A stretch of DNA of 22,574 nucleotides, from IMG/VR virus record IMGVR_UViG_3300020470_001073, positions 1-22,574 of that record. One strand, 5' to 3'. The translations under genes were made by a program, and so were the position numbers. Position 1 is the stretch's first letter; every line of letters starts with the position of its first letter. Source of the DNA: a virus. Under the pieces are notes generated by a model. That model did no database searches. It saw only the letters and a list, made by a program, of their open reading frames with translations, and was not told the origin of the DNA. Shown here in pieces: positions 1-22,244 of this stretch.

Positions 1-3000
1 GCACCATCAACGAATGCACCATTACCACCTAAGAAGGAGATAACAGAAGAGTTCTGTGTATATGGAGATGCTTCAATGATTGGATAATCATCATAGTCAC
101 CACGAATAGCAGATCTCTGATTGTTAGAGTCATAGATGTAACTATCAGGATATGATATTATCGTTGATGTATCATATAATGTTCCAGTTGTCTTAGTTGT
201 TGTTCCAGGAGTAATTGTTCCATCCAAAATGTCCTCAAAGAGTTCCATTTCAGTTGTAACTGTACTAGCAACAGTAGAACATAGTGGAGTACCACCTGTG
301 AATAGGGTAATATTCCAATCTTCAAACTTAGGTATAGGTGAAGATGTAGATATCTGATCATATACAACATAACATCCATTAGTTGCACCACTAACAAATG
401 CATGTGTTGATCCACTAGCAGATCCAGCAGCACCTACATTAACTGTGACTGTTGTGTTACCACCAGCAGATGATACATTAGTAATTGGAAGTGATCTACC
501 GTATGCTTTCTTATCAGCAGGAACCCTTCTTGGATAAGTATGCTGAGTAGCATTGCTATCCTGATCACAAGTAAATGTTAAAGCATCTTCTTTAAATGCT
601 AATCTATGATTCGTTGTTACTGCCTTAGCAGGATCTGGGAATGTTACTGTCAATACACCAGTGTTAGCAGTGTATGATGCACCATTTGGTGTAACAGCAG
701 CAGGTAGTGTAGAAGCAACACCAACATTAACGGTAACTGTTGTGCCAGTTACAGCAGTAATAGCAAGGTTTGCTCCAGAGAAAGGATCATTTGGTCGAGG
801 GTATGATTCCTGAGAAACATGACCATCTTGTTCACAAGTAAATGTAACAGCACCATTAGCAATTTGAAGAGTGTTACTTGTGGTTAAACTATGAGATCCA
901 ATTTCTAATACTAAATTACCATTTGCAGGATCATAAGTTGTTCCAGTTGCCGCTGTCTTAGTACCACCAGCATTAGGAGTAATACCACCAGAAGTACCAC
1001 TAACAAATGTATGTGTTCCAGAAGAACCACTCCAGTTAGATAATGCTTTAATTACATAGTACTTAACTCTCTGATATGCATATATTGTCTGGGCAAGCAT
1101 TCCTGCCTCAATACCAGATAGTTCAGTTCCTGTGAAATATAATTCTGCCTTCTCAACAATACCAGTGTTACCACCAAGTACAAGGTCACGAATCAATCCA
1201 CCAAGAACTAAGTTAATATCTCTACGACACTTCCTTTGATTAAGATCTGAAAGATTTGCGTTAGGATAATTTGCTTCTGTATCTTTTAATGCCTGATCAG
1301 CAATTAGATCTCTATTTCTGCCTATTAAATATGCAGCATCAAGATATACATTAGAAGCATTATTTGATATAACATCTACAAATAGATATGCAAGAGTATC
1401 AATAGCAGCTCTTACATCATCACAAGCAGGAGATCCTGCTGTAGCACCAAAGTTAACAATATATTGGTCTGTATATTGTGTTAAACTTGTATGTTCTGCA
1501 ACATATAATGGATCAGAGGTAGTTCTATTACCAGTTCTCCAGTTACACATAGCATAGATCGCTAATTCTCTAGCGTACTCTATACCACGAACAGTTTGAA
1601 TAATCTCATTTTCAATATAATCTATCTTAGCACCAACAATATACTTCTTGGCAGCTTCAATAGTATTATGGTTTGAACCAAATTCAAGGTCTCTTTGAAC
1701 AGCATTCAAGAAGTGTCTAATATCCTGTCTGCAATTCTCATCTCCATTTGGTTGTATATTACTACCACTTGTAGGAGGACTGAATGATGGATATAACTTC
1801 TGTCCAGAAGTACAAGAAACTAAGATATTTGCTAACTTAACAGTACTATCTTCTGCAATATTTGGTATAGGAGCAGAGACTGTGACAGTTGCATAACCAG
1901 TGTTTATATTATCATAAACAAAGTTACTGACATTATAACTAGTACCACCAAACTCTACAGTACCACCACTTACATATGTGTGTGTTTCTGGTGTTTGTCC
2001 TAGGTATATCTTAAATGATGTACCACCAGTTCCTAATGCATTTGCTGCTGACCTTACAAATGTATGTGCAGTCTGTGGACGGAATCTAACAGCATTTGTG
2101 TCAGCAGAAACAAATGTATGTAATGACTGTGGTGTTATCTTAACTGAATTGGCAGCACCACTAACCCATGTATGAGCATAGTCACCACCAGTTCTTACAA
2201 CTCCTCTAGTAACACTATTGGCAGCAGCAGATACGAAAGTATGAGCAGTTGTGTTAGTAGAAGGTGTAGTATCTAAGACCTGAACATCAAATGTATTGGT
2301 CTGAACATTAGAAATCTTAAGGAACTTACCAGATACAGGGTCAGTAGGTCTAGGATAACTATGGTTTGAACCATTACCATCTTCAGCACATGTAAATGTT
2401 AGAGCACTATCAGCAATCCTTACATGTTCACCATTAACTAATCCATGATTAGCAATAGTTAATGTCATTACACCTGTTGTTGGATTGTATGCTGCATCCG
2501 TAGGTGTTAAACCAGTATTAGGAACAAATGTGTGTGTATGATTACCACCACTAACTACTGAATTAGAATTTGCTGATACAAATGTATGAGCAGTTGTATT
2601 AGAAGAGATACCAACATCAACAGTAATTGTTGTGTTAGTTACCGCAGTAATATTAACTGCTGTGTTATATGCTTTATCTCTCTTCTGTTTAATACCATCA
2701 GCAGCAGCACTTACAAATGTATGTGCATAATCACCACCAGTTTGTACAGCATTAGCAGCAGCAGAAACAAATGTATGAGCAGTGGTATTGGTTGAAGGAA
2801 TAGTTGTTAAGACCTGAACACTGATTGTTGTTGCCGTTACAGCAGTAATTGGGCAAGCAGTGTCAAAGAATGGGTCAGTAGATCTTGGATATGTGTGCTG
2901 AGTATTGTTACCATCTTCAGCACAAGTGAAGGTTAAGGAGTTTGCAGCAAACTTAACACTATCACCAACAATATGGTTATGAGAACCAATTGTCATCTCC

Positions 3001-6000
3001 ATAATACCTGTAGTAGGATTATAGTCAATGGCAGTTGGTTGATAATTTACTATAGGTGAAGCACCAACATTTATATCAAAAGTATCTGTACTTACATTAG
3101 AAACAAGGACATACTGACCGCTAATTGGATCAGTTGCACGAGGATATGTCTTCTGAGAAGTATTTCCATCCATTGTACAAGTGAATGTCAATGAATTATC
3201 TTCTATCTTAACCCAGTCACCATTTCTCATTCCATGAGCAACAGCAGTAAGAGTTAATATTCCAGTAGTAGCATTGTATGTTGCATTACTTGCTGTATGA
3301 GAATCAATTTGTGGACGAGGATAACTATGGTTAGTCTGATCACTATCCTGAGCACAAGTAAATGTAACAGCACCGTCAGTAAGTTTAACGCTTGTATTTG
3401 CTCTTAGGTTATGCTCACCAATTGTTAATTCTAGAAGACCTGTAGCAGGTGTATAAGAGGCGTTAGTTGGTGTGTAAGTTACTTCAGGTGATATACCAAC
3501 ATTAACAGTAACGATTCCATCCTGTCTCTCTAATCCACCTGTAGTAGCGGATATAAATGTATGAGCAGAAGTATCTTGAGATACACCAACATTAACTTCA
3601 AATGTATCTGTGGTTACTTGAGAAATCTCTATCCAATCTCCACCAACAGGGTCTCCTGTTCTTGGATAAGTATGTGTTGAGATATTGTTATCCTTAGCAC
3701 AACTGAATGTAAGAGAATTAGTTGCTATCTTAACACGATCTCCATTAGAGAATCCATGACCAGCAACAGTTAATACCATTACACCTGTAGCAGGTGTGTA
3801 TACAGCAGCAGTTACTGTGTGTGCTGTAAATCCTATTGAATCTACATTAAGTGCCTGTTGGAATGCTCTATCTCTCTTTTGTGATACTCCATTAGCAGTT
3901 GCTGATTGGAATACATGAGTTGATGTGTTAGTAGAAGGAGCACTATCTAAAACTTGTACTGTTACAGTATCATCAGTTACATTGGATACTGGTATCCACT
4001 CACCGCTAATTGGGTCTGTTGCACGAGGATATGTGTGATCTGATCCTTGAGCATCTTGATCACATCTAAATGTTAATGAATTATCAGCAATCTTGATGAA
4101 ATCTCCATTAGACATTCCATGCTTAACTATCGTTAAGGTTAATGTACCTGTCTGAGGATTATATGCTGCGTTAGTTGCTGTATGAAGATCTATATCTGAT
4201 CTTGGATATAACTTCTCAACTTGATTTCCATCCATCAAGCAAGTAAACTTGACTGATTCTTCTTCTAAAACAATAGAATCACCAATGTTGATGTTATGAG
4301 CACCAAGGTTTAATGCAAGAGCACCTGTAGTAGGTGTATATGTTGCGGAAGTTGGAGCGTATGCTACATGTGGTGTAGTTCCAACATTAACTGTTAGAGT
4401 GCCGTCCTGTCTTGCTATACCATTAGCAGTTGCAGAAACGAAAGAGTGTACAGAAGTATCCTGAGAAATACCTACATTAACATCAAATGTATTAGTTTGA
4501 ACATTAGATACTTGTAACCATCTTCCACTTACAGGGTCATATCCAGCACGAGGGTAAGCATGGTTTGATCCATTACTATCAAGAGCACACTGGAATGTTA
4601 AAGATCCATCAGCAATCTTGATGTAATCACCATTAGCGTAGCCATGGTTTGCTACTGTAATGGTCATAAGACCTGTAGATGGATTATATGCTGCGTTAGT
4701 TGCTGTCTTATTTGCAGAACCAACAGCAATAACTGGTATGGATTGTCCTGAAACAGGGTCAGATCCCTGACGAGGATAACTATGAGTGGTAGCATTACCA
4801 TCCATAGCACAGGTGAATGTTAATGCACTATTATCAATAGTAATATCATCACCAACACGAATTCCGTGCTGACCAATAGTTAATACAAGGTTTCCAGTTA
4901 AAGGATCAAATGTTCCGTTTGTTGGTGTAAATGTTTTGTCTGCACCAGCAACACCTACATTAACTGTTACACTTGATGCTGTAGTACCTGTGATAGGAAG
5001 AGATCTTCCAGATGCTTTATCAGATGCACGAGGATATTTCTTAGTTACCTGATTATTATCCATTGCACACTTGAAGTGCAATGATTCATCTTCAATAATA
5101 ATACTTTCACCAGTAGTTAAAGTATGACTACTGATAGTTAAGGTTAAATCTCCAGTGGCAGGATTATAAGTTCCACCAGAAGGAGTGTAATTAATATCAG
5201 ATGGTGATAAACCAACATTTACTGTAAAGGTGTTTGCATCTGCTGCTAAGACTGGTAATGCTTTAGTACTAGCAGGGTCAGTTGAACGAGGATATGAATG
5301 CTCAGTAGCATTACTATCCATAGCACAAGTGAATGTCAGACTATCATCTGTAATTCTTACACCAGTTCCAGTAGTTAATCCATGACTGTTAAGAGTGAAT
5401 ACTACATCACCTGTAGCAGGGTCATAAGTTGCACCTGTTGGTGTGTATTGAGAAGCGGCTGTACCACCAATATCAAATACAGAGAAATGATCTTTAGCAA
5501 ACTGACTGTTTAATTTTCCAACTGCTTCATCAGCAATGTAGTCTACATTGTTACGAATTAATAGACAAGCATCTTGATACCTTCTATTAACAGGAGTTGA
5601 TAATGGGAAACTGTTTGGAGAGTTTAGTAGGGATAAGGTAACTCTCTTAGAGAATGATTTAACTGTTGCAAATTGACCAGGATCAAGATTAGCATCAACA
5701 ATCGCTGGCATCTTTTTAGGAATTACAAATCGTCTAGCACGACCATCTGCATCCTCTATAACCTTATAAATTCTTTGCTTACCATTTAATTCTGATAAGT
5801 CTGGACCTGAAGTAGGAAGACCTTCCAACAGGATTTCTTGACCTTCTTTAAACTCGTGTGTGTTAGTTCTACCAACAAGAGCACTTGTGTAGAATACAAT
5901 ACCACCTATATCTTCTGCATTTCCAAATTGTGCATTCTGGAAACCACCAGTTGCTATAGAAGCATCACCTTGTAATGAGAAATCAATCCTTGTAATAGGA

Positions 6001-7907
6001 AGAGAAGCAGTATAATCTTCATTAAATTCTACAACTTCACCTTCTGCCCTGATTGACTTAATTGCAGTGGTGTCAATTGTATATACTGTTGGAGTTGCTG
6101 CATTTATAGTGAAGTTTCCTGCATTAGAACTAGTCCATGTAGGAGAGTTAAGAATAGGAACGAATGTTACATCCCAATATCCTGATCCAGCATTGGTATT
6201 ATCAATACTTACTACTTGATAGAAACCTTCTGTAAATTCTGCATCATTGGTATCATCAAGTTTTACATATGTACCAGCAGGAATTACAGATGAAGGATCT
6301 TGTGTAAATCTTAGTTTATTAGCACCAGCAGTCTGAGAAATAGTTAGACTGATCGCACCACCAGTGGCAGCAGAAGTGATGTATTCAAATCGCTCACCTT
6401 CAACGAAAGAACCACTTGTTAGTCGTACATCAATATTACCATTAACATATGCACTAGCACCTATAGTGGTATCAAAGTTTACACCAATTATTTTTGCTCT
6501 AGCACCAGTGTTAACACCAACAACTTCTAAGTTGGTTGCTAGATTTGATAAACCAGTGTTCTGCTGGAATGTAACCTTGAACTGATCTGGTCCAAAAACT
6601 TGTGTACCTATTGGATAACTTACACCAAAGTCACCATTTGATTCTGCATCAATGGTAATTTGCTGCTTGTCATCAAAGACCATTGCGTAATCCCAAGTCG
6701 CAACTGGGTCATTGTTAGAATCAATCTTATCCCTGAAGGTGACACCAAGAACATAGTTCTTATCACCAAACTTAAATATATGTTTACCTGGGTTAGCAGG
6801 ACGGATAATAACCAAACGCAAGTTATCACCAACGATTGATGCGTCAGGTGGAATTGATATTGGGTTGTCTTCAACATAGTCTCCACCAGAAACAATAATT
6901 GTTTCTTTTACTCCAGGAGTAGACCATGCCAACTGACATGCTTTTTTAATAGTTCTTACAGGGTTTACCGCAGATCGACCATCGTTAAGGTCAGAACCAA
7001 TCTGTGATGAAACATAAACACGACCACCAACGTCGTTAGTTGCCAGATTCAGAACATATTCAGTAGTAGCAATCTTGTCTGATCTATCACCTAATAGAGG
7101 TGTGATAGAACGAGGAAATACACCAGACTCTCCAGTTTCATTATATCCATATTCAATTGGATCAACTACGCGGAAACCAATGTGTTTAAAGTCAACTTCA
7201 CCATTTTTTACGATTCCATCCTTATGATCTGGAGCACTAGCACCTGTTTGTCCAGAATTAATTGCCTGGTACATATTAGCACCGAAGTACCTATATGCAT
7301 TCTTCTGAACAATAACACCAGCAGCCCAAGGCGTACCAGTGTTGTTAGCATAAGTCTTTAAATTTGGTCCTCTAAAATTGGCATCAGGGGTAATAAAGTT
7401 ATCAATATCAAGGTTCAGAATTCTTGCAGTATCTGAAATGATAGATGTTGATGTTCTAATAGCACCGTTGATGTCAAGTTCAAAGTCAACAGTATCCAAT
7501 TCTGCAACAGCAGTAGCACCAGTACCACCGCCACCAGATATAGTTACAGTTGGAGCAGCATTATATCCAGAACCTGGGTTATTAACAGCAATAGAAACAA
7601 CTTGCCCATTAAAAATAAACGCAGAAGCTTGTGCAGTTATACCACCAGATAATTGTGGTGGTCCAACTTCTACTGAAGGTTGAGTTGTATAACCTGAACC
7701 TCCCGAAACTATATTAATATTGTTTATTCTTTCACCAGTTCTATTAATACCAACACGAGGTAAGTTCGTGGTGACATCCAATTCAGTACGGAGAATCTCT
7801 CTTTCTAGAGCTCCTATACCTCCTCTAATAGTTAACTCATTATCACCTATAAGTTTCGGGGCTACACCCCTAATCTTCTCTTTATCAGAATTAATATGAA
7901 AACTCAT
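1..7907 (-). CDS. Giant beta-helix virion protein with 13 Cys-Asp-YPR modules, at least 2635 aa, C-terminus outside window
   Basis: I read this frame continuously from the ATG at 7907 to the left edge and met no stop, so 2635 codons are present and the end is missing. Residues about 55-130 hold GSGY-type glycine-rich repeats. Residues 290-400 (VYVSSQIGSDLNDGRSA..PVRTIKKA, then SIVGDNLRLVIIRP and KNYVLGVTFRD) are typical of a pectate-lyase-like right-handed beta-helix. From about residue 820 comes a long array of C-x2-D..YPR modules, an alpha-helical duplication (about 2040-2295), two more modules, and then what looks like a resumed beta-helix (PYTQNSSVISFLGGNGAFVDG) at the edge. It has no signal peptide. 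An adhesin or tail-spike role in the virion is inferred from the fold and the position after a fibre gene. No catalytic site could be assigned. Confidence 0.8.
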   Translation of the reverse strand, partial: MSFHINSDKEKIRGVAPKLIGDNELTIRGGIGALEREILRTELDVTTNLPRVGINRTGERINNINIVSGGSGYTTQPSVEVGPPQLSGGITAQASAFIFNGQVVSIAVNNPGSGYNAAPTVTISGGGGTGATAVAELDTVDFELDINGAIRTSTSIISDTARILNLDIDNFITPDANFRGPNLKTYANNTGTPWAAGVIVQKNAYRYFGANMYQAINSGQTGASAPDHKDGIVKNGEVDFKHIGFRVVDPIEYGYNETGESGVFPRSITPLLGDRSDKIATTEYVLNLATNDVGGRVYVSSQIGSDLNDGRSAVNPVRTIKKACQLAWSTPGVKETIIVSGGDYVEDNPISIPPDASIVGDNLRLVIIRPANPGKHIFKFGDKNYVLGVTFRDKIDSNNDPVATWDYAMVFDDKQQITIDAESNGDFGVSYPIGTQVFGPDQFKVTFQQNTGLSNLATNLEVVGVNTGARAKIIGVNFDTTIGASAYVNGNIDVRLTSGSFVEGERFEYITSAATGGAISLTISQTAGANKLRFTQDPSSVIPAGTYVKLDDTNDAEFTEGFYQVVSIDNTNAGSGYWDVTFVPILNSPTWTSSNAGNFTINAATPTVYTIDTTAIKSIRAEGEVVEFNEDYTASLPITRIDFSLQGDASIATGGFQNAQFGNAEDIGGIVFYTSALVGRTNTHEFKEGQEILLEGLPTSGPDLSELNGKQRIYKVIEDADGRARRFVIPKKMPAIVDANLDPGQFATVKSFSKRVTLSLLNSPNSFPLSTPVNRRYQDACLLIRNNVDYIADEAVGKLNSQFAKDHFSVFDIGGTAASQYTPTGATYDPATGDVVFTLNSHGLTTGTGVRITDDSLTFTCAMDSNATEHSYPRSTDPASTKALPVLAADANTFTVNVGLSPSDINYTPSGGTYNPATGDLTLTISSHTLTTGESIIIEDESLHFKCAMDNNQVTKKYPRASDKASGRSLPITGTTASSVTVNVGVAGADKTFTPTNGTFDPLTGNLVLTIGQHGIRVGDDITIDNSALTFTCAMDGNATTHSYPRQGSDPVSGQSIPVIAVGSANKTATNAAYNPSTGLMTITVANHGYANGDYIKIADGSLTFQCALDSNGSNHAYPRAGYDPVSGRWLQVSNVQTNTFDVNVGISQDTSVHSFVSATANGIARQDGTLTVNVGTTPHVAYAPTSATYTPTTGALALNLGAHNINIGDSIVLEEESVKFTCLMDGNQVEKLYPRSDIDLHTATNAAYNPQTGTLTLTIVKHGMSNGDFIKIADNSLTFRCDQDAQGSDHTYPRATDPISGEWIPVSNVTDDTVTVQVLDSAPSTNTSTHVFQSATANGVSQKRDRAFQQALNVDSIGFTAHTVTAAVYTPATGVMVLTVAGHGFSNGDRVKIATNSLTFSCAKDNNISTHTYPRTGDPVGGDWIEISQVTTDTFEVNVGVSQDTSAHTFISATTGGLERQDGIVTVNVGISPEVTYTPTNASYTPATGLLELTIGEHNLRANTSVKLTDGAVTFTCAQDSDQTNHSYPRPQIDSHTASNATYNATTGILTLTAVAHGMRNGDWVKIEDNSLTFTCTMDGNTSQKTYPRATDPISGQYVLVSNVSTDTFDINVGASPIVNYQPTAIDYNPTTGIMEMTIGSHNHIVGDSVKFAANSLTFTCAEDGNNTQHTYPRSTDPFFDTACPITAVTATTISVQVLTTIPSTNTTAHTFVSAAANAVQTGGDYAHTFVSAAADGIKQKRDKAYNTAVNITAVTNTTITVDVGISSNTTAHTFVSANSNSVVSGGNHTHTFVPNTGLTPTDAAYNPTTGVMTLTIANHGLVNGEHVRIADSALTFTCAEDGNGSNHSYPRPTDPVSGKFLKISNVQTNTFDVQVLDTTPSTNTTAHTFVSAAANSVTRGVVRTGGDYAHTWVSGAANSVKITPQSLHTFVSADTNAVRFRPQTAHTFVRSAANALGTGGTSFKIYLGQTPETHTYVSGGTVEFGGTSYNVSNFVYDNINTGYATVTVSAPIPNIAEDSTVKLANILVSCTSGQKLYPSFSPPTSGSNIQPNGDENCRQDIRHFLNAVQRDLEFGSNHNTIEAAKKYIVGAKIDYIENEIIQTVRGIEYARELAIYAMCNWRTGNRTTSDPLYVAEHTSLTQYTDQYIVNFGATAGSPACDDVRAAIDTLAYLFVDVISNNASNVYLDAAYLIGRNRDLIADQALKDTEANYPNANLSDLNQRKCRRDINLVLGGLIRDLVLGGNTGIVEKAELYFTGTELSGIEAGMLAQTIYAYQRVKYYVIKALSNWSGSSGTHTFVSGTSGGITPNAGGTKTAATGTTYDPANGNLVLEIGSHSLTTSNTLQIANGAVTFTCEQDGHVSQESYPRPNDPFSGANLAITAVTGTTVTVNVGVASTLPAAVTPNGASYTANTGVLTVTFPDPAKAVTTNHRLAFKEDALTFTCDQDSNATQHTYPRRVPADKKAYGRSLPITNVSSAGGNTTVTVNVGAAGSASGSTHAFVSGATNGCYVVYDQISTSSPIPKFEDWNITLFTGGTPLCSTVASTVTTEMELFEDILDGTITPGTTTKTTGTLYDTSTIISYPDSYIYDSNNQRSAIRGDYDDYPIIEASPYTQNSSVISFLGGNGAFVDG
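1030..1750 (-). repeat. Duplicated alpha-helical domain interrupting the module array
   Basis: Two segments of about 65 residues (1530-1750 and 1030-1250) align end to end. One begins CRQDIRHFLNAVQRDLEFG and ends MCNW; the other begins CRRDINLVLGGLIRDLVLG and ends LSNW. Both are strongly helical, unlike the surrounding beta modules. The linker contains another helix (AAYLIGRNRDLIADQAL) that resembles LLIRNNVDYIADEAV near 5510-5575, just before the module array starts. Confidence 0.75.
1965..2830 (-). repeat. Cluster of short HTFVSA repeats between array modules
   Basis: Between modules 10 and 11 and after module 11 the protein carries many copies of a short unit, HTFVSAxxNxV, often followed by a GG-rich linker such as TGGDYA. 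Examples on the minus strand are AHTFVSAAANAV, AHTFVSAAADGI, AHTFVSANSNSV, AHTWVSGAANSV, LHTFVSADTNAV and AHTFVRSAANAL. The same motif ends many of the larger modules elsewhere in the array, so this looks like local expansion of a module end. Confidence 0.75.
3036..4695 (-). repeat. Duplicated three-module super-repeat (units 3813-4695 and 3036-3812)
   Basis: Modules 4-5-6 and 7-8-9 of the array align as blocks. Matching Cys codons lie about 883, 887 and 891 nt apart. The links are also duplicated: GISQDTSVHSFVSATANG then ARQDGTLTVNVG in one unit, GVSQDTSAHTFISATTGG then ERQDGIVTVNVG in the other. Likewise YPRSDIDLHTATNAAYN matches YPRPQIDSHTASNATYN. The second unit is shorter because it lacks the tail extension after its last module. 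Confidence 0.8.
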
Positions 7908-14066: not shown

Positions 14067-17000
14067 TTAGTAAGAAGCAACGGTGCGAAGATCCTGAATT
14101 TTAGGAACATAAACAGGGTCATCAGATCTCATAACAATCTTAATACCAAAGGAAGAAAACTCTGGTAAATTTTGAACACTGTATTTCAATTCTTGATATG
14201 CACTTTGTTTCTCAACAATTCCAGAAATAGTATTTTCACTAGTAGGATATTGAGTAGTATCTGGTAAACCAGTTGCATTAAAGTATTCCCACTCAATATT
14301 CTCAAATGTTTCTTGACTTGAAGACTTCTTATACCTATAAAGTACTTGAATGTCATCAATATTCTTAACATTAACAGTCAATCTAACATCAATAGTTGTT
14401 CCTGGATTACCAATTGATACTTCTTTAGTTGTATACTTAGCAATGGAAGAACTATCACTAAATGTTATCTCTGGATTATATTCAATACCATCTGTATATC
14501 CAACAGATTTAATTTCCCAATATCCTGTTGTATCAGAACTTTGACCAGGATATGAAATGATATCTCCTGCACGGAATATATCTTCTACTCCATCTCCAGA
14601 TCTTGCATTACCAGAACCAGAAGACTCTGATAGGGATTCTGTATAACCAAGAGTTCCATAAGGTTTCTTATCATTCTTAACTGTTGCAATCTGATTTTGA
14701 GAATCAAAGAATACTACCTTACCTTCAATCTTATCATCGAATGTAGAAGACAATGTAGATGGATTTCTGGCAATTATTGCACCAGCAACATCAACACTAA
14801 ACACTTGTCTAGTAGGATCATTTCCTACTACAACTCCAGAAGATCCATTCCAACTCTGTGATGATAATGCAGATTCACCAAATACAATTCCTTCTCCTTT
14901 CTGGAATCCATTAGCTGTTGAAACTCTAACAAATATGTTAGGTGTTCCAGAAATATCTACAACTCTGGCAATCGTTCCTTTAGCCTTAGATGTATAGCCT
15001 TCAACCGTGTAACCAGTATTAATTGTAGGAGTACCTGAAACATTAGATAATGCAAAATAAGATACTTCTTTAAACGATAGAACTTGATCTCTACGACCAT
15101 ATCTATCTTCTTGACCTTTAGACTTTTCAATTCTATTAGTTGCAAGTTTTACAGATGCAGAAGAAAGATCAATAAGTGGAGATAAGTGAGAAACTTGTGA
15201 TGAAAGTTTAATCTCATACTCTAGAGATCTATCTAAAGTATTCATAGTCTGGTTTATAGGAGAAGCAATAACTTTTTGGTTATTGAAATAATGAATCTCA
15301 TTCAAGAATGTCTTCTCATGTACAGTCTGTGAATATGAAACATAATTTGTTGATGTAGAATCTACTGGAAGAACATTAGTTGTCTTAACAGTTGATTCAA
15401 CACTAGTATCACTAAATGTTAGATAATTTACTTGTGGATATAACTTTTCAAACTTTCTATTGTGTGAAGCAAGAACATTAGATCCAGCACCTTTTAATGT
15501 ACTAGCAGCAACTGTTGGACTGGTAATGTGATAATAATCAACACCAGAATTGCTTACTGAGTACAATCTTGTATTTAATTGTGTAGCAGGAATACCACCA
15601 ACATCTACTCCACCATTAAAGAATACATAGGATTTTCCAGAATCTTCAAATCCATGATCTCTATGTTGAACACGCATTACTTTATTGTTATTCCTGAATA
15701 GAGGAGAAGTTGCTCCAGCATTCGCAGTAGCATCTGTCTCTACAGGATTAGCACTCAACATTTCATAACCAAGATCTTCATTCTCTAATTTGAGAGATCC
15801 ATTTCTAGTTAAATCAAATTCTGCTCTATTAAGAGTAAACTTAAGATCTTCAAATAAATCTTCTGACCAACTCTCTGTATTCTGAGATCTATATACAGAT
15901 CCCAAAGAAGGTGTGGTAACTACTGGAGTACTTGTGGCAATATCAATATCACCAAGTCTAGAAGTCCAAAGTGAATATTCAGTAGAATCAGTTTCTACAA
16001 CTAAAGCATACTCTGAATTATTTTGTAAGTAAACAGGATTCTTGAAGTTGAATGTTGTTGGAGTTGTTGAGTCTGTAACACCAGTAGAATCAATTGCAAC
16101 ACCCATTCTTACGGCTGGGGTATCAATTGTTATCTCTGCTTCAACAACAGCACCAGCAGCACCAGTACCTATGCCTTTGACAACGATAGATGGAGGAGCA
16201 GTATATTCAGATCCAAATAATGTAGCCTCAGCATCATATATCTTTCCATCAGATATACTTACCTTACCATTAGCAATACTTCCACCTGGTAATTGAGGAC
16301 TCTCAAAAGATAATACTGCTGATTCATAACTTCCACCAGTTGCAGTAACATTCAAATTAGATACCTTACCAGCATCTTTTGCAATTGTTACTGAAAGAGC
16401 AGTGTTATTAGCATTATTATATGTTGTTAAAACTGGAATAATTAATGTTTCATTAGATTTAAATGTCTTACCATTATGATTACTAAAGACAAATGTATAT
16501 ACTTGCTCGTTTGTTAGACTAACATCTCCATTACTTGCAGGAGTTAACTCATTATTATTTCTATCAAGAACTTTAGCAAGAGGACCACTACAGTTTGATT
16601 TAGATCCAGTAATAGTTTCTCCAATTCTTACTGTTAATATACCATTTGTATAAACACGAACTAAACTATCAGGAAGAAGTGATACTTCTGTTCCAGGAAG
16701 AATATACTTACCTGGTTTCTCACTCTCTGTATTTGTGATATAAACTCTCACTGGTACATTTGTACTCTTTTTATTAAAGAAGAGATCTACACTAGTACCA
16801 AAACAACCACCATCAAAGTTTTCAATCTTAAATGTCTGTGCAAGTGGATTTGGTCTTGCTTCTACATCTGTTACACTATCAATTAACTGAACACCTTCAT
16901 TTGCTTTGAATACTGAAGGAGAAGTTGAATTAATTGTCGAAGGATTCTCTGGGAGTCTTCCAACAGCATAGTATTTAATTTCTGCGTAACTATCTACTGT

Positions 17001-20000
17001 ATCCTTAGCAGCATTGGTAGAACTAGAAGTAAACCTAACAGTCTTAGTTCCAGCAGTTACCCTAATCTGTTCTGATGTAGTATCATACTCCAATGTGTCT
17101 GGACTACCAGTCCAAGCAGCATTTTGCAATGGTGAATATCCACCAGGAATTAAAATAAGTCCACTAGCATTACCATTTTCATCAGTAATGATTGATCCAT
17201 TAAATCCAGAAAGTGAATTACCAGCAATTCCAGTAAACTTGCTATCTGGAGTAACCCATCTAGAAATATCTTTACCTTCTAGGAAAGGATATAGTCTTGT
17301 TGATGGCTTAAGTCTAGTAATTACATACTTAACAGCAATACTTCTAGCAAAGAATCTTAGAGAAGTAGCAACTGTACCCTGAGTATTACTATCGGTAGAA
17401 AGTCCTTTACCTATTTCATTATTTTGTGGACTTACATTAGAAGAACTAGCAACACTTGCTGTTTGTACTGTTGATGCAGCAGAATCAGAGTTTGTAGATG
17501 AGAAAGAAGAAATCTCTCCAAATGAATTCTTAGAACCAACCCAGTTAACAACAAATGAATCAAATATACTTGAGAATGCATCCTTTACATCATTCTTAGC
17601 AATAAAGATTGAATAAAGTTTAGTATTGTTATCTACAATTAAAGGTTCTACAGTCTTATCATACCAAGGATCAATAGAAGGAGTTAAATGACCTTCTCCA
17701 ACATACTGTAATGAAACAAATGGGTTAGGATTAATTGTCTTAGTTGCAGAAGAATTTCCAATAAGAGGAAGAGTTGTATATGGTAATGTTATAGCATCAC
17801 CTGTTCTTTGATAACCACTGATAACTCTTTGGTCATCTCTAGTATTAACTTCATTCAAAGAATAAGAATCTTCATTAGTTTGAGATCTTAATACAGACTG
17901 TTGTGTATCAATAGCACACTTATAGTCTGGAGAAGAAATATCTCCAACTAAATGAGTCTCAAAGTTATCAACAATAAATCCTGTCTTAAATCTATCAAAT
18001 CCAATCTCATCACGAATCTGCATACCCAATGCTTGTTGCTCAAGTATGCTTAATGTTGTGTAATATTCTAATCGTTCGATACGCTTTTCAAGCTTACCGA
18101 TATCCTTCATTGTATATCTACGATTATCAACAGGAGTAATTCTCAAATCCTTACTTGATGTCGTAAATGCAGGAATATAGATGTAATATAATGCAACAGC
18201 ATCATCTATATTCTCTGGTCTAGTTGGGTTCTGTGATGAATTACCTTCCTTGAGTACAAATTGACCTTTCTTGTTTAAGAAAATACCGTCAATTCTGTTG
18301 AGGAATTCAGTTTGACTGAAGCTAAACGTAAATTCAAGATTAGCATCTGGAGCAGGAGTAACTGAAAGAACACCGCCTTCTCCAGTAAAACTAGTTGATC
18401 CTCCTTGTCTTGATGAAGTATTACTATAACCAGTGACAAATGAGGTGGAATCGACTTTTGGTCTAAAGTCAAGAACATTCTTAAGAGAAACAATGCCATA
18501 GACAGAAGAGTTAAATGTAGGAATTTCTTCTAAGGTAACACCAGCCTCATGACTATAACTATCAACGGTACAGAAATCTCCTTGTGAATGCTCAAAGTAA
18601 TCGAATGCTACAACCAGTTGTCCAGTTGGTGCTTCGTATCCTGGTTTTAAAACTATTCTTGAAGTATCATAGAAGGTTTCTCTTTGTCCATTGTCGAAAG
18701 TAAATCTTTCGGTAACATCAATACCATTACCAGTTAAATTTCCAGCAGTATCAACACTAGGAGGTTGGGTAGATGTACCCTCATAGATGTATCTTAGTTT
18801 AAATGCATCAGAGTATGTTGAAAGAATAGTTGATTCATCATCGAAATTCTCACCACGAAGAGGAATAACTCTATCTCCAACAGCTTTAATAAGAATTCTC
18901 TTATTCTTAATAGCAGTCTTAATTCTTGGACGAGCCTTAGTTAATTCTAGTGTTGCTGTTAATTTTAACTTAGGGAAATTAGAAGTAGCACCAAATACTG
19001 TAGTTGGTAATGTAACTACAACAGAACCAGCATTCAATCCACTAGCTAAGTCAGTAGTAGATGAAGTTGATATATCATCTTCTGTGATATAGATGATATC
19101 ACCCTTGGAAACATTAGTTGAATCACCTGGATCCAATACAGTCATAATAAAGTTGGATTCATTAAATCCTACAAACCTTTGTGTACCAAAAGGTAACTGT
19201 GCTGTGAATGTAATAGAACTACCACTAGTACTAGAGGCAGTAACAAAATCTCTTCTATAATAGTACTTGATCTTAGAATCATCAGAACCTCTAGAGATAG
19301 AAGATACCTGACCACTTCCAGTTGGGTATAAAAGAGTTCCTTGATTGAAGTTATCAATCTTAGGTGTAATCTTAACTACACTATCATTAACAACTGCATC
19401 AGGAAGTACTGTATCCAAATAAATTCTAGACTTTAATGTTCCATCTGGTTTTGTAGCATATGATACACATGCTCTTACAGACTTACCATCTTGTCCAGTA
19501 TATTGGATATAGTCACCTTGCTTCAAGAATTGAGTAGCATCGCCACCAAATCCATTACACTCCAATAATTTGTATCCTTTGTTACCTGAGAATGTATAAG
19601 ATGTTACAGGTACTAGGGTTGTATTTGTAGTTTTCTGACTTTCTATATCTGCTGTAAACTTATTAGCACCAAGAGATCCAAAAGCAGAACCAAAAGACTT
19701 AACATCTTGAGGACTATATGTAACTACAGTATCTCTAAACAATACAGCATCTACTCTAGCAGCAAGAGTAACAGTACCACCACCAACATTGACACTTACT
19801 AGAGGTGGTTGATTATATGTCTGTGTGAAAGCAGATCTTTCTTTTACTTCAACATTTGTTACATATCCAGTTCCACCAGTATCTACAGTTACAGTAACTT
19901 TAGAAGTATCAAATAATTGTCCGTTAATATTTAAATTAGTGTTTGATGGATATCCACCAGTACTTCTATACTTAACAACAAAGTGTGAAATAGTATTATC

Positions 20001-22244
20001 TGTTGCGATCTTCGCAGCATTATCACCTTCGTCTCTAATAGTTTCACCTGATCTGAACTTACCAGATAAAGTACGAACCATTAATATACCAACACTACTA
20101 AAGTCTGATGTTTCAGTTCCCTCAACAATACCATAAGCACCGCTAGTTACTCCAACAACATACTGACCAGAAGCAAATCCTGTTGCTGGTTGTGCTTCTA
20201 ATGTTAACTTAGTAAAGAATGTTGGTGCAAAATATGATAGACCAAAGATACCATTATAGGCAGCATCTCCATTGGAGAGTCTTCCTTTAGATAATATATT
20301 ATCGGTATCTCCGTTAAAACCAAATCCTCTTTCTTTAAGACTAAAGTTACTTGGTTTTGCAGTACCTATAAGAGGAGTTACTACAGGGTTATAATCAATA
20401 ACATAACCCAACCTATTAGCAGCAGCTCCAGAACCAGTTGTGGTGTCTAGATATAAGAATCTTCTTTCTGCTGAATCATCTTCTGCATCATATTCAGTGA
20501 TAGCAGCTAACTGTGATTTCTTTCCAAGTAAAGTAATTTCTGCAAATTTCTTTGCTGTATCTCCAGGACTTGCATCTGGTCTAGTTACTAAACTATATCC
20601 AATAACCTTAAGTGTATTAAATGCTGCTGGAAGACCTGATGCTCTAGTTGATACAACATATACCTGATTAGTACCATCACATACATCTGTATATACTAGT
20701 GTTGGTAATCCACTAGAAGGGTTTGCTTTGTCTACAAGATCAGCTTTGGTTATTTCTACTGTGACAGTTTTAATACCGTCACTGTCAGTAAATATAGTTC
20801 CTCTTCTATCAACAGTACTTACTCTTCCATCTCCATTTAAAGCAAACCTTTGAGAAGAACCGAACTCTAAATTCTGACCAATAGTTCCATCATTGTAAAC
20901 ATTAAAGAACTCAAGATCTGGATAAGCAGTTAAATCAGATCCTTCTGAGTTTAATGGTACTGATCCACTAGTATTTGTAATTGCGTATGTTGGGAGACCT
21001 CTTGTTTTAAGAGTTATATTATTTGATTCTAATGTATCTCTTGCTTTGCTAATTTCAAGGTTCTTTGTCTCCTTGTTAACAATTTCATATCCTCTAATAT
21101 ATGCTTTACCTGCTCCAACACCAGCAAGCATTAACTTACTTGCATCTTCGGCAGATTTACCATTATAGAGTCCATCAGAATCAACAGCATATACACCATT
21201 GTTTCCATCCTTCTGTGCATACTCTCTGACATCAACAGAGAAGTTATCCACAACATAATCACCAGACTCATCATATGTCCTTCTAGCAAGAGTCTGTTCT
21301 AATAGTGAGTAGTCTGCTTGTACTACTTTCTTTTGTATTACACCACTCTTAACCCTTAAGAGTTGAATAAAATTCTTATCAGTCTGAGCAGTTAAAGCAT
21401 ATTGCTGAAGTGCAAGACTTATTTTTAATCTATGTGCTCCTGGTGCAGAGAAGTTAGAAGAACTAGTTGCATTATCATACAGAGTTGTATCTTCCTCTGG
21501 AGTTACAATATCTTCTGTAATCTTAAAACCTACTTTAGCACTAGGTGCATTGTAATATGGATCAACAACTAATAGTTGCTCATCATTACGTACAAAATAT
21601 CCATTAACAAAGTAAATACCTTCTTCTACTTTAACAGCAGAAGCATATCCCATAGCAGGACTTACTACCGAAGATTCTACATTTGTATCTGGATCAGTAA
21701 CAGTAACAGCAGTTGGAAGAACAGATCCATCAGTTCCTACTACCATTAAAGGAGTATTAACACCATTAATTACTTCTAAAGTCTCACCTTGTCTAAAAGT
21801 AGACTCATTATTAGCATTACCACTGGTGGTGTATATAACAAATAAGGTATCAGAATTAGTTTCTGTAGCAATCTTAGTAGAAACTACGTTACCAATAACA
21901 CCAGAAGTTAAACCCTTTAACCGAGTTCCTACTAGTGTCGAGATATCATATTTCTTATAAACGATATTACCGCTGCCATCGTTTACAGCAACTTCAGAGA
22001 CAGAAGACAATTTAACAAAATCAAGCTTATTGTTAAGACCTACCTCACCAGGTATTACTAAGTCTCCCTGCTTGAAAGCATATTTACCAAATTGCTCAAC
22101 CTGATTCTGTAGAATCGATTGAAGTTGTGTTAATTCTCTGCCTTGGATAGAGTAACCAGGACGGAAAAGAATCTTATAAAAGTTCTTACTCGCATCAAAG
22201 TCCTCAAAATAAGGAGATACATTTAAATTCGTCTTTTGAGGCAT
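14067..22244 (-). CDS. Giant virion/baseplate-type structural protein, DUF4815-like, 2725 aa
   Basis: The N-terminus (NVSPYFEDFDASKNFYKI, then a LQSILQNQVEQFGK segment and a GDLVIPGE turn) is the signature I associate with the DUF4815-type structural proteins of T4-like cyanophages. Most of the chain is beta-rich, Thr/Ser/Gly-rich sequence. One clear helical segment, residues about 1370-1430 (IGKLEKRIERLEYYTTL and onward), is predicted to form a coiled coil and may be an oligomerisation core. Short glycine-rich GTGY-type repeats appear near residues 830-870 and 1960-2040. The end (FSSFGIKIVMRSDDPVY..KIQDLRTVASY) looks like a conserved terminal domain. There is no signal peptide or membrane segment. 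The ATG at 22244 is preceded by a weak GGCGGA ribosome site. The position directly after gp8 is where T4 carries genes 9 and 10, so attachment to the baseplate wedge is a reasonable inference, not shown. Length may vary among relatives. Confidence 0.75.
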   Translation of the reverse strand: MPQKTNLNVSPYFEDFDASKNFYKILFRPGYSIQGRELTQLQSILQNQVEQFGKYAFKQGDLVIPGEVGLNNKLDFVKLSSVSEVAVNDGSGNIVYKKYDISTLVGTRLKGLTSGVIGNVVSTKIATETNSDTLFVIYTTSGNANNESTFRQGETLEVINGVNTPLMVVGTDGSVLPTAVTVTDPDTNVESSVVSPAMGYASAVKVEEGIYFVNGYFVRNDEQLLVVDPYYNAPSAKVGFKITEDIVTPEEDTTLYDNATSSSNFSAPGAHRLKISLALQQYALTAQTDKNFIQLLRVKSGVIQKKVVQADYSLLEQTLARRTYDESGDYVVDNFSVDVREYAQKDGNNGVYAVDSDGLYNGKSAEDASKLMLAGVGAGKAYIRGYEIVNKETKNLEISKARDTLESNNITLKTRGLPTYAITNTSGSVPLNSEGSDLTAYPDLEFFNVYNDGTIGQNLEFGSSQRFALNGDGRVSTVDRRGTIFTDSDGIKTVTVEITKADLVDKANPSSGLPTLVYTDVCDGTNQVYVVSTRASGLPAAFNTLKVIGYSLVTRPDASPGDTAKKFAEITLLGKKSQLAAITEYDAEDDSAERRFLYLDTTTGSGAAANRLGYVIDYNPVVTPLIGTAKPSNFSLKERGFGFNGDTDNILSKGRLSNGDAAYNGIFGLSYFAPTFFTKLTLEAQPATGFASGQYVVGVTSGAYGIVEGTETSDFSSVGILMVRTLSGKFRSGETIRDEGDNAAKIATDNTISHFVVKYRSTGGYPSNTNLNINGQLFDTSKVTVTVDTGGTGYVTNVEVKERSAFTQTYNQPPLVSVNVGGGTVTLAARVDAVLFRDTVVTYSPQDVKSFGSAFGSLGANKFTADIESQKTTNTTLVPVTSYTFSGNKGYKLLECNGFGGDATQFLKQGDYIQYTGQDGKSVRACVSYATKPDGTLKSRIYLDTVLPDAVVNDSVVKITPKIDNFNQGTLLYPTGSGQVSSISRGSDDSKIKYYYRRDFVTASSTSGSSITFTAQLPFGTQRFVGFNESNFIMTVLDPGDSTNVSKGDIIYITEDDISTSSTTDLASGLNAGSVVVTLPTTVFGATSNFPKLKLTATLELTKARPRIKTAIKNKRILIKAVGDRVIPLRGENFDDESTILSTYSDAFKLRYIYEGTSTQPPSVDTAGNLTGNGIDVTERFTFDNGQRETFYDTSRIVLKPGYEAPTGQLVVAFDYFEHSQGDFCTVDSYSHEAGVTLEEIPTFNSSVYGIVSLKNVLDFRPKVDSTSFVTGYSNTSSRQGGSTSFTGEGGVLSVTPAPDANLEFTFSFSQTEFLNRIDGIFLNKKGQFVLKEGNSSQNPTRPENIDDAVALYYIYIPAFTTSSKDLRITPVDNRRYTMKDIGKLEKRIERLEYYTTLSILEQQALGMQIRDEIGFDRFKTGFIVDNFETHLVGDISSPDYKCAIDTQQSVLRSQTNEDSYSLNEVNTRDDQRVISGYQRTGDAITLPYTTLPLIGNSSATKTINPNPFVSLQYVGEGHLTPSIDPWYDKTVEPLIVDNNTKLYSIFIAKNDVKDAFSSIFDSFVVNWVGSKNSFGEISSFSSTNSDSAASTVQTASVASSSNVSPQNNEIGKGLSTDSNTQGTVATSLRFFARSIAVKYVITRLKPSTRLYPFLEGKDISRWVTPDSKFTGIAGNSLSGFNGSIITDENGNASGLILIPGGYSPLQNAAWTGSPDTLEYDTTSEQIRVTAGTKTVRFTSSSTNAAKDTVDSYAEIKYYAVGRLPENPSTINSTSPSVFKANEGVQLIDSVTDVEARPNPLAQTFKIENFDGGCFGTSVDLFFNKKSTNVPVRVYITNTESEKPGKYILPGTEVSLLPDSLVRVYTNGILTVRIGETITGSKSNCSGPLAKVLDRNNNELTPASNGDVSLTNEQVYTFVFSNHNGKTFKSNETLIIPVLTTYNNANNTALSVTIAKDAGKVSNLNVTATGGSYESAVLSFESPQLPGGSIANGKVSISDGKIYDAEATLFGSEYTAPPSIVVKGIGTGAAGAVVEAEITIDTPAVRMGVAIDSTGVTDSTTPTTFNFKNPVYLQNNSEYALVVETDSTEYSLWTSRLGDIDIATSTPVVTTPSLGSVYRSQNTESWSEDLFEDLKFTLNRAEFDLTRNGSLKLENEDLGYEMLSANPVETDATANAGATSPLFRNNNKVMRVQHRDHGFEDSGKSYVFFNGGVDVGGIPATQLNTRLYSVSNSGVDYYHITSPTVAASTLKGAGSNVLASHNRKFEKLYPQVNYLTFSDTSVESTVKTTNVLPVDSTSTNYVSYSQTVHEKTFLNEIHYFNNQKVIASPINQTMNTLDRSLEYEIKLSSQVSHLSPLIDLSSASVKLATNRIEKSKGQEDRYGRRDQVLSFKEVSYFALSNVSGTPTINTGYTVEGYTSKAKGTIARVVDISGTPNIFVRVSTANGFQKGEGIVFGESALSSQSWNGSSGVVVGNDPTRQVFSVDVAGAIIARNPSTLSSTFDDKIEGKVVFFDSQNQIATVKNDKKPYGTLGYTESLSESSGSGNARSGDGVEDIFRAGDIISYPGQSSDTTGYWEIKSVGYTDGIEYNPEITFSDSSSIAKYTTKEVSIGNPGTTIDVRLTVNVKNIDDIQVLYRYKKSSSQETFENIEWEYFNATGLPDTTQYPTSENTISGIVEKQSAYQELKYSVQNLPEFSSFGIKIVMRSDDPVYVPKIQDLRTVASY

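Follow-up and report, generated by a model that had tools for sequence, protein, structure and literature searches.

What are the repeated modules of a giant cyanophage tail fibre, why does each of them keep a cysteine, and in what kind of protein are they set? These questions are raised by the virus record IMGVR_UViG_3300020470_001073 of IMG/VR, whose full 22,574 bases were analysed here and are called the window. Its minus strand encodes a tail-fibre open reading frame (ORF) in which a small module with one invariant cysteine recurs many times. We found that the main array of these modules lies within a single loop of a helical domain, itself a homologue of the phycobiliproteins of cyanobacteria, that the module is predicted to be a small beta-barrel related at a distance to the barrels of phage endosialidases, and that the cysteine is under selection in its own right. 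That the modules sit within a homologue of the host's light-harvesting proteins was unexpected, and is the more important of these results.

The domain that carries the array

In the window protein two helices precede the array and the remainder of the helical domain follows it; a second copy of the domain, without that insert, lies downstream. A relative with a single module was modelled (predicted local distance difference test, pLDDT, 78), and all of the 50 top PDB rows obtained with this model were phycobiliproteins, with Z between 15.4 and 17.1 and a root-mean-square deviation (rmsd) of 1.9-3.3 over 131-155 residues. Foldseek with the helical domain also placed phycoerythrin first, with an E of only 0.02 and a probability of 1.00. 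The six distinct chains obtained from a profile search of the PDB were all phycobiliproteins (best 6e-4). When the profile of the domain was compared with that of 17 cyanobacterial phycobiliproteins, E was 1.8e-8 and the score 48.8, against a null maximum of 22.2; the score was still 28.6 after the C..D columns had been masked. The Pfam family Phycobilisome (PF00502) matched 8 of 22 members of the helical domain (best E 0.0013), and its curated cut-off was passed in one phage record only, by summing neighbouring matches (28.7-29.2 against 22.2 bits), single matches staying below it. The fibre domain differs from PF00502 proteins in that it is found in virion proteins, carries giant insertions between its helices and, as far as aligned, lacks the N-terminal X-Y helices.

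The insertion loop measures 6-12 amino acids (aa) without a module, about 100 with one and about 1,250 in the window protein, and the number of modules at this loop varies from 0 to 15 in relatives. A search of the phage collection with a single sequence located the helical domain in 125 records, all cyanophage or marine. Modules were present in 285 of the 286 ORFs having the domain, among loci that had themselves been chosen by their modules. We found no report, among the open-access papers searched, of cyanophage fibres with phycobiliprotein or FCCH domains.

The helix after the array begins with C-x-R-D, aligned with the bilin-attachment cysteine of phycobiliproteins and its arginine and aspartate. 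Over 199 clusters, the cysteine was kept in 195, the arginine in 152 and the aspartate in all. It is conceivable that the helical domains are captured host phycobiliproteins that still bind bilin at C-x-R-D, attached with the help of a phage CpeT, and that the bead arrays were grafted on a pigmented scaffold. We consider this possibility quite improbable; the conserved cysteine and aspartate may have a structural reason instead. Many phages of this kind encode CpeT (239 records), and a bilin reductase was found in one of eight records examined. If the scaffold were captured and pigmented, the puzzling bilin genes that cyanophages carry would act for the virion and not for host light harvesting, and a domain able to bind bilin would offer cpeT, pebS and pcyA a target in the virion that can be tested. 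Without bound bilin, an antenna-protein fold would have been turned into a fibre scaffold in abundant ocean viruses. In four records cpeT shares its strand with the giant phycobiliprotein-like gene and lies 1-4 kilobases (kb) from it, but other phages have about 50 kb between them, and cpeT often adjoins CP12. Given this inconsistent distance and the frequent neighbourhood of CP12, the proximity of cpeT was rejected as evidence.

The cysteine module and its conservation

The fibre protein contains 13 exact matches to C..D.{5}..YPR (cysteine numbers in Table 1), compared with 7.9e-5 expected from composition and none in 2,000 shuffles. Pairwise identity among the 13 modules ranges from 24 to 60% (mean 38%), and the only columns without variation are G, F, C, D, Y, P and R. 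An earlier note on this DNA had described a thirteen-copy array. The 13 motifs stand, but they do not form one array: the modules are grouped as 11 + 2 (ten in 2814-5447, one in 2280-2510 and two in 459-956), about 1.3 kb, mostly helical domain, separating the module at 2280-2510 from the last pair, and a divergent 14th module had been missed. This 14th module, which lacks the aspartate (cysteine codon 1812-1814), closes the eleven-module block, and in many relatives its counterpart is the sole module at that loop. In the half-modules of C1223 and C1518 the last two strands are absent and the next module starts directly after YPR; the module of C1033 is short of the last strand only, and the next one again begins without a gap. 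Relatives likewise show cysteine spacings of 59-60 and 73-74, so that these shortened modules may be strand-sharing forms.

To follow the motif in the wider family, module loci were gathered by five viral scans and one genome scan, and conservation was counted over the 518 clusters, below 70% identity, into which the modules of 303 loci fell. The search was motif-blind, that is, the motif columns were masked in the profile to avoid circularity. Results showed that the cysteine was kept in 515 of the 518 clusters, the aspartate in 83%, the histidine in 61% (replaced by lysine in 19%) and the tyrosine, proline and arginine in 67, 82 and 66%. Since it is kept almost throughout in a motif-blind search, the cysteine is under real selection, and this selection is independent of its supposed partners, the aspartate and the histidine. 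The strict spacing C-x2-D-x5-[HKE]-x-YPR, from which the earlier note had deduced selection on all of these residues, holds within the window protein; in the family, the loop spacing is that of the window in 72% of clusters, with a range of 8-26 residues. Frequent replacement of the cysteine, which the same note had named as an argument against a metal or disulfide role, is not what the family alignment shows.

Modules occurred in 325 phage records, every one cyanophage or marine, in agreement with the earlier note, which had called them frequent in marine T4-like phages. The scan of genome contigs gave three module loci only, in one Prochlorococcus single cell and two metagenome-assembled genomes, and these are most simply phage contigs. 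A search of plasmids for modules gave no match.

Barrel fold, inserted loop and the role of the cysteine

A three-module model (AlphaFold, 56 relatives) was all beta with a pLDDT of 88, and predicts the module to be a small beta-barrel. In the model, strand 4 leads straight to the cysteine, the aspartate ends a short 3-10 turn, and strand 5 bears the histidine or lysine and the tyrosine. The best PDB rows of the structural aligner were the phage FCWL1 neck protein, the phi92 and K1F endosialidase barrels and the E1 FCCH barrel, at Z 5-6; the K1F and phi92 barrels aligned with an rmsd of 2.2-2.3 over 62-65 residues at Z 5.5-5.8, below the level that is safe alone. Among the 56 relatives, weak Pfam matches to the endosialidase barrel (PF12195) occurred in seven (best E 0.029) and to E1_FCCH (PF16190) in two. 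Neither curated cut-off was reached, by window protein or relatives in the case of PF12195 and with a best score of 15.3 against 29.5 bits in that of PF16190. Profile-profile comparison of the module with PF12195 gave a score of 33.4 (E 5.5e-6, P 85.6), the maximum in 200 column shuffles being 17.7. The sequence matches agree independently with the structural aligner on both families and range, and the bead core appears to be distantly related both to the endosialidase beta-barrel and to barrels of the E1-FCCH kind.

The module shares with the PF12195 barrel, which likewise belongs to phage host-recognition proteins, the core segments 'xTIxxHGLxxGDxVxFxxs' and 'TVxxVxdxnTFTV'. Unlike it, the module has about 20 extra loop residues (Cys...YPR...DP), comes in tandem arrays and is not accompanied by a propeller; the aligned PF12195 members are also without its cysteine. 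The E1 FCCH domain is a small barrel too, but lacks the cysteine loop. PHROG 1276, 5342, 701 and 18802, which together cover the modules and the fibre protein, carry no annotation beyond tail fibre, virion structural or unknown, and give neither fold nor function for the module. A predicted fold and a distant family can now be given to one of the commonest unassigned modules of marine cyanophage fibres, which narrows the statement of the earlier note that no function was assigned. Two other kinds of match were rejected: iota-carbonic anhydrase (summed E 6e-4 with the module profile), as single repeats gave E 9 or worse, and PF23003, PF14262, PF17653 and similar weak Pfam matches, which were short pieces inconsistent with the model.

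In the profile alignment to PF12195, which covers aa 424-506 of the K1F tailspike, the Cys...YPR segment appears as a lineage-specific insertion where K1F carries the loop NFSNSAVTGVSG. The K1F barrel is one of three polysialic-acid sites; S460 and S468 lie in the site, and changes there affect host discrimination (PMC12632334). Both serines flank the loop aligned to the module insertion.

Covariation computed over 1,206 modules (effective number 590) recovered the hairpins and positioned strand 4 beside strand 1. In module numbering, and at the loop tip, Asp49 couples with T45 and T53; His55 couples with residue 48 and R59, and Tyr57 with D62. Every second position from L42 through F44 to C46, along strand 4, faces inward, and C46 couples with G18 of the beta1-beta2 turn and F44 with A11/T12. 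From this we infer that the cysteine is probably a buried structural thiol by which the loop is anchored to the barrel.

On this basis we propose that the host-recognition fibre of a marine T4-like cyanophage carries 14 small beta-barrel beads, in which the loop C-x2-D-x5-[HK]-x-Y-P-R-x2-D-P would have been inserted between strands 4 and 5 in this lineage. The cysteine would extend the inward positions of strand 4, pack near the beta1-beta2 turn and hold the loop as a buried thiol, and the aspartate would cap the loop tip. The beads would grow from one or two loops of phycobiliprotein-like domains, tandem duplication multiplying them at one fixed loop to give an arm of variable length. Such an array would probably contact host surface glycan multivalently through the inserted loops, each contact being weak individually. 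Taken as a whole, with multivalent beads for host recognition, a phycobiliprotein-like scaffold and a cysteine loop held by a buried thiol, we regard the proposal as evenly poised between right and wrong. Several points weigh against it. Glycan contact is argued from distant homology only, and, taken by itself, no structure match of the bead reaches significance (best Z 6.0; best E 0.45 with Foldseek in the PDB). Receptor-binding loops are often hypervariable, whereas the inserted loop shows fair conservation (Y, P, R, D). The C46-G18 coupling is drawn from few variable sequences. Moreover, a merely buried cysteine is rarely near-invariant, since valine, alanine or serine often substitute for it.

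The beads could instead be passive spacers by which the fibre acquires its length, with the receptor bound elsewhere and the cysteine merely stabilising the bead. The variable copy number at a single insertion point and a loop more conserved than a receptor-binding loop would be are both in line with this explanation. However, the equivalent loop of the K1F barrel is a glycan site, and the bead loops retain tyrosine, arginine, histidine and aspartate, residues of a sugar-binding kind. We hold passive spacers to be unlikely, although the most serious of the alternatives.

The metal site suggested in the earlier note, in which the cysteine, aspartate and histidine of each module, or of three subunits round an axis, bind iron or zinc, is improbable. 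Repeated conserved residues in fibre proteins do have a precedent: iron is bound through HxH motifs in T4 gp37 and in fibres of marine phages (PMC11705849). D49 and H55 are moderately coupled (rank 47 of 3,003), and all three residues are common in the family. Nevertheless, the iron sites use other residues, and it is the cysteine, not the histidine, that is conserved in the modules. The three are not conserved together as ligands (99%, 83% and 61%): the cysteine stays where aspartate and histidine are lost and whatever the loop length, and lysine often takes the place of the histidine. H27, although 92% conserved, shows no coupling to the cysteine, the aspartate or His55 and is part of 'HGLxxGD', which is common to the cysteine-free endosialidase barrels.

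Disulfides between modules or fibre subunits in the oxidising outside medium are more doubtful still: each module does offer one invariant cysteine, and additional cysteines, where present, cluster at columns 69 and 81 (37 of 55), but these columns, probably inner positions, are uncoupled to C46, the cysteine is kept by all 102 isolated single modules (eight of them in a slightly different context), which makes pairing of neighbours unlikely, bead counts per run are not preferentially even, three equivalent thiols are unpairable in a three-fold symmetric fibre, and the side of the cysteine alternates with core residues.

The fibre gene and its surroundings

Table 1. Fibre gene, cysteine modules and helical-domain segments in the window
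Feature	Position	Strand	Remark
Giant tail-fibre ORF, 2,635 aa	3..7907	minus	not closed at the window's low end
Phycobiliprotein-like domain 1, N-terminal helices (aa 775-803)	5499..5585	minus	before the array
Module 1 (C861)	5217..5447	minus	
Module 2 (C947)	4959..5189	minus	
Module 3 (C1033)	4701..4931	minus	without last strand before next module
Module 4 (C1107)	4479..4709	minus	
Module 5 (C1223)	4200..4361	minus	truncated after YPR
Module 6 (C1282)	3954..4184	minus	
Module 7 (C1403)	3591..3821	minus	
Module 8 (C1518)	3315..3476	minus	truncated after YPR
Module 9 (C1577)	3069..3299	minus	
Module 10 (C1662)	2814..3044	minus	second cysteine, C1685
Module 11 (C1840)	2280..2510	minus	
14th, divergent module (C2032)	1764..1943	minus	'LVSCTSGQKLYPSF'
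Phycobiliprotein-like domain 1, rest (aa 2059-2183)	1359..1733	minus	C-R-Q-D at start
Phycobiliprotein-like domain 2 (aa 2184-2295)	1023..1358	minus	C-R-R-D at aa 2227-2230; profile independent E value (i-E) 7.3e-41
Module 12 (C2358)	726..956	minus	
Module 13 (C2447)	459..689	minus	
Likely last helix of domain 2	222..281	minus	'CSTVASTVTTEMELFEDILD'; after modules 12-13; by eye, resembles last helix of domain 1

Residues 1-1171 of the fibre ORF match PHROG 5342 'tail fiber protein' with E 0. A Pfam scan of the whole fibre protein gave no family (for PF12195, nothing at E<=1), and a PDB sequence search with the full protein gave no match. Myoviruses of Synechococcus and Prochlorococcus are the closest phage records to the window. 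The counterpart gene in Synechococcus phage Sf-CH1b is named tail fiber protein and is flanked by a DUF4815 gene and neck genes, a position that matches the host recognition cluster located between VrlC and gp14 in marine T4-like phages (PMC7029224). Also on the minus strand of the window are the last part of a gene for a gp8-like protein, a DUF4815 gene (14067-22244), a gene for a product of 68 aa, and genes for two structural proteins, of 1,797 and 166 aa.

In P-SSM4 (NC_006884, 57144-79082), a 7,312-aa protein named 'gp7' has both barrel modules and phycobiliprotein-like domains, which makes the gp7 name doubtful.

Two further kinds of repeat were seen in the window. Repeats of 18 residues, 'HTFVSAxANxVxxGG', spaced by 54 nucleotides, lie between barrel modules at 2052-2777 and also at 3549, 4434, 999 and 390; in the one-module relative this element is predicted to form a long beta-hairpin ahead of the barrel. 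Near the N-terminus of the fibre (7460-7750, aa 54-146), 'GSGYxxxPxVxI-GGGGTGATA' repeats resemble a stretch of PHROG 460 (head closure Hc2), and similar repeats are found in the neighbouring 1,797-aa protein.

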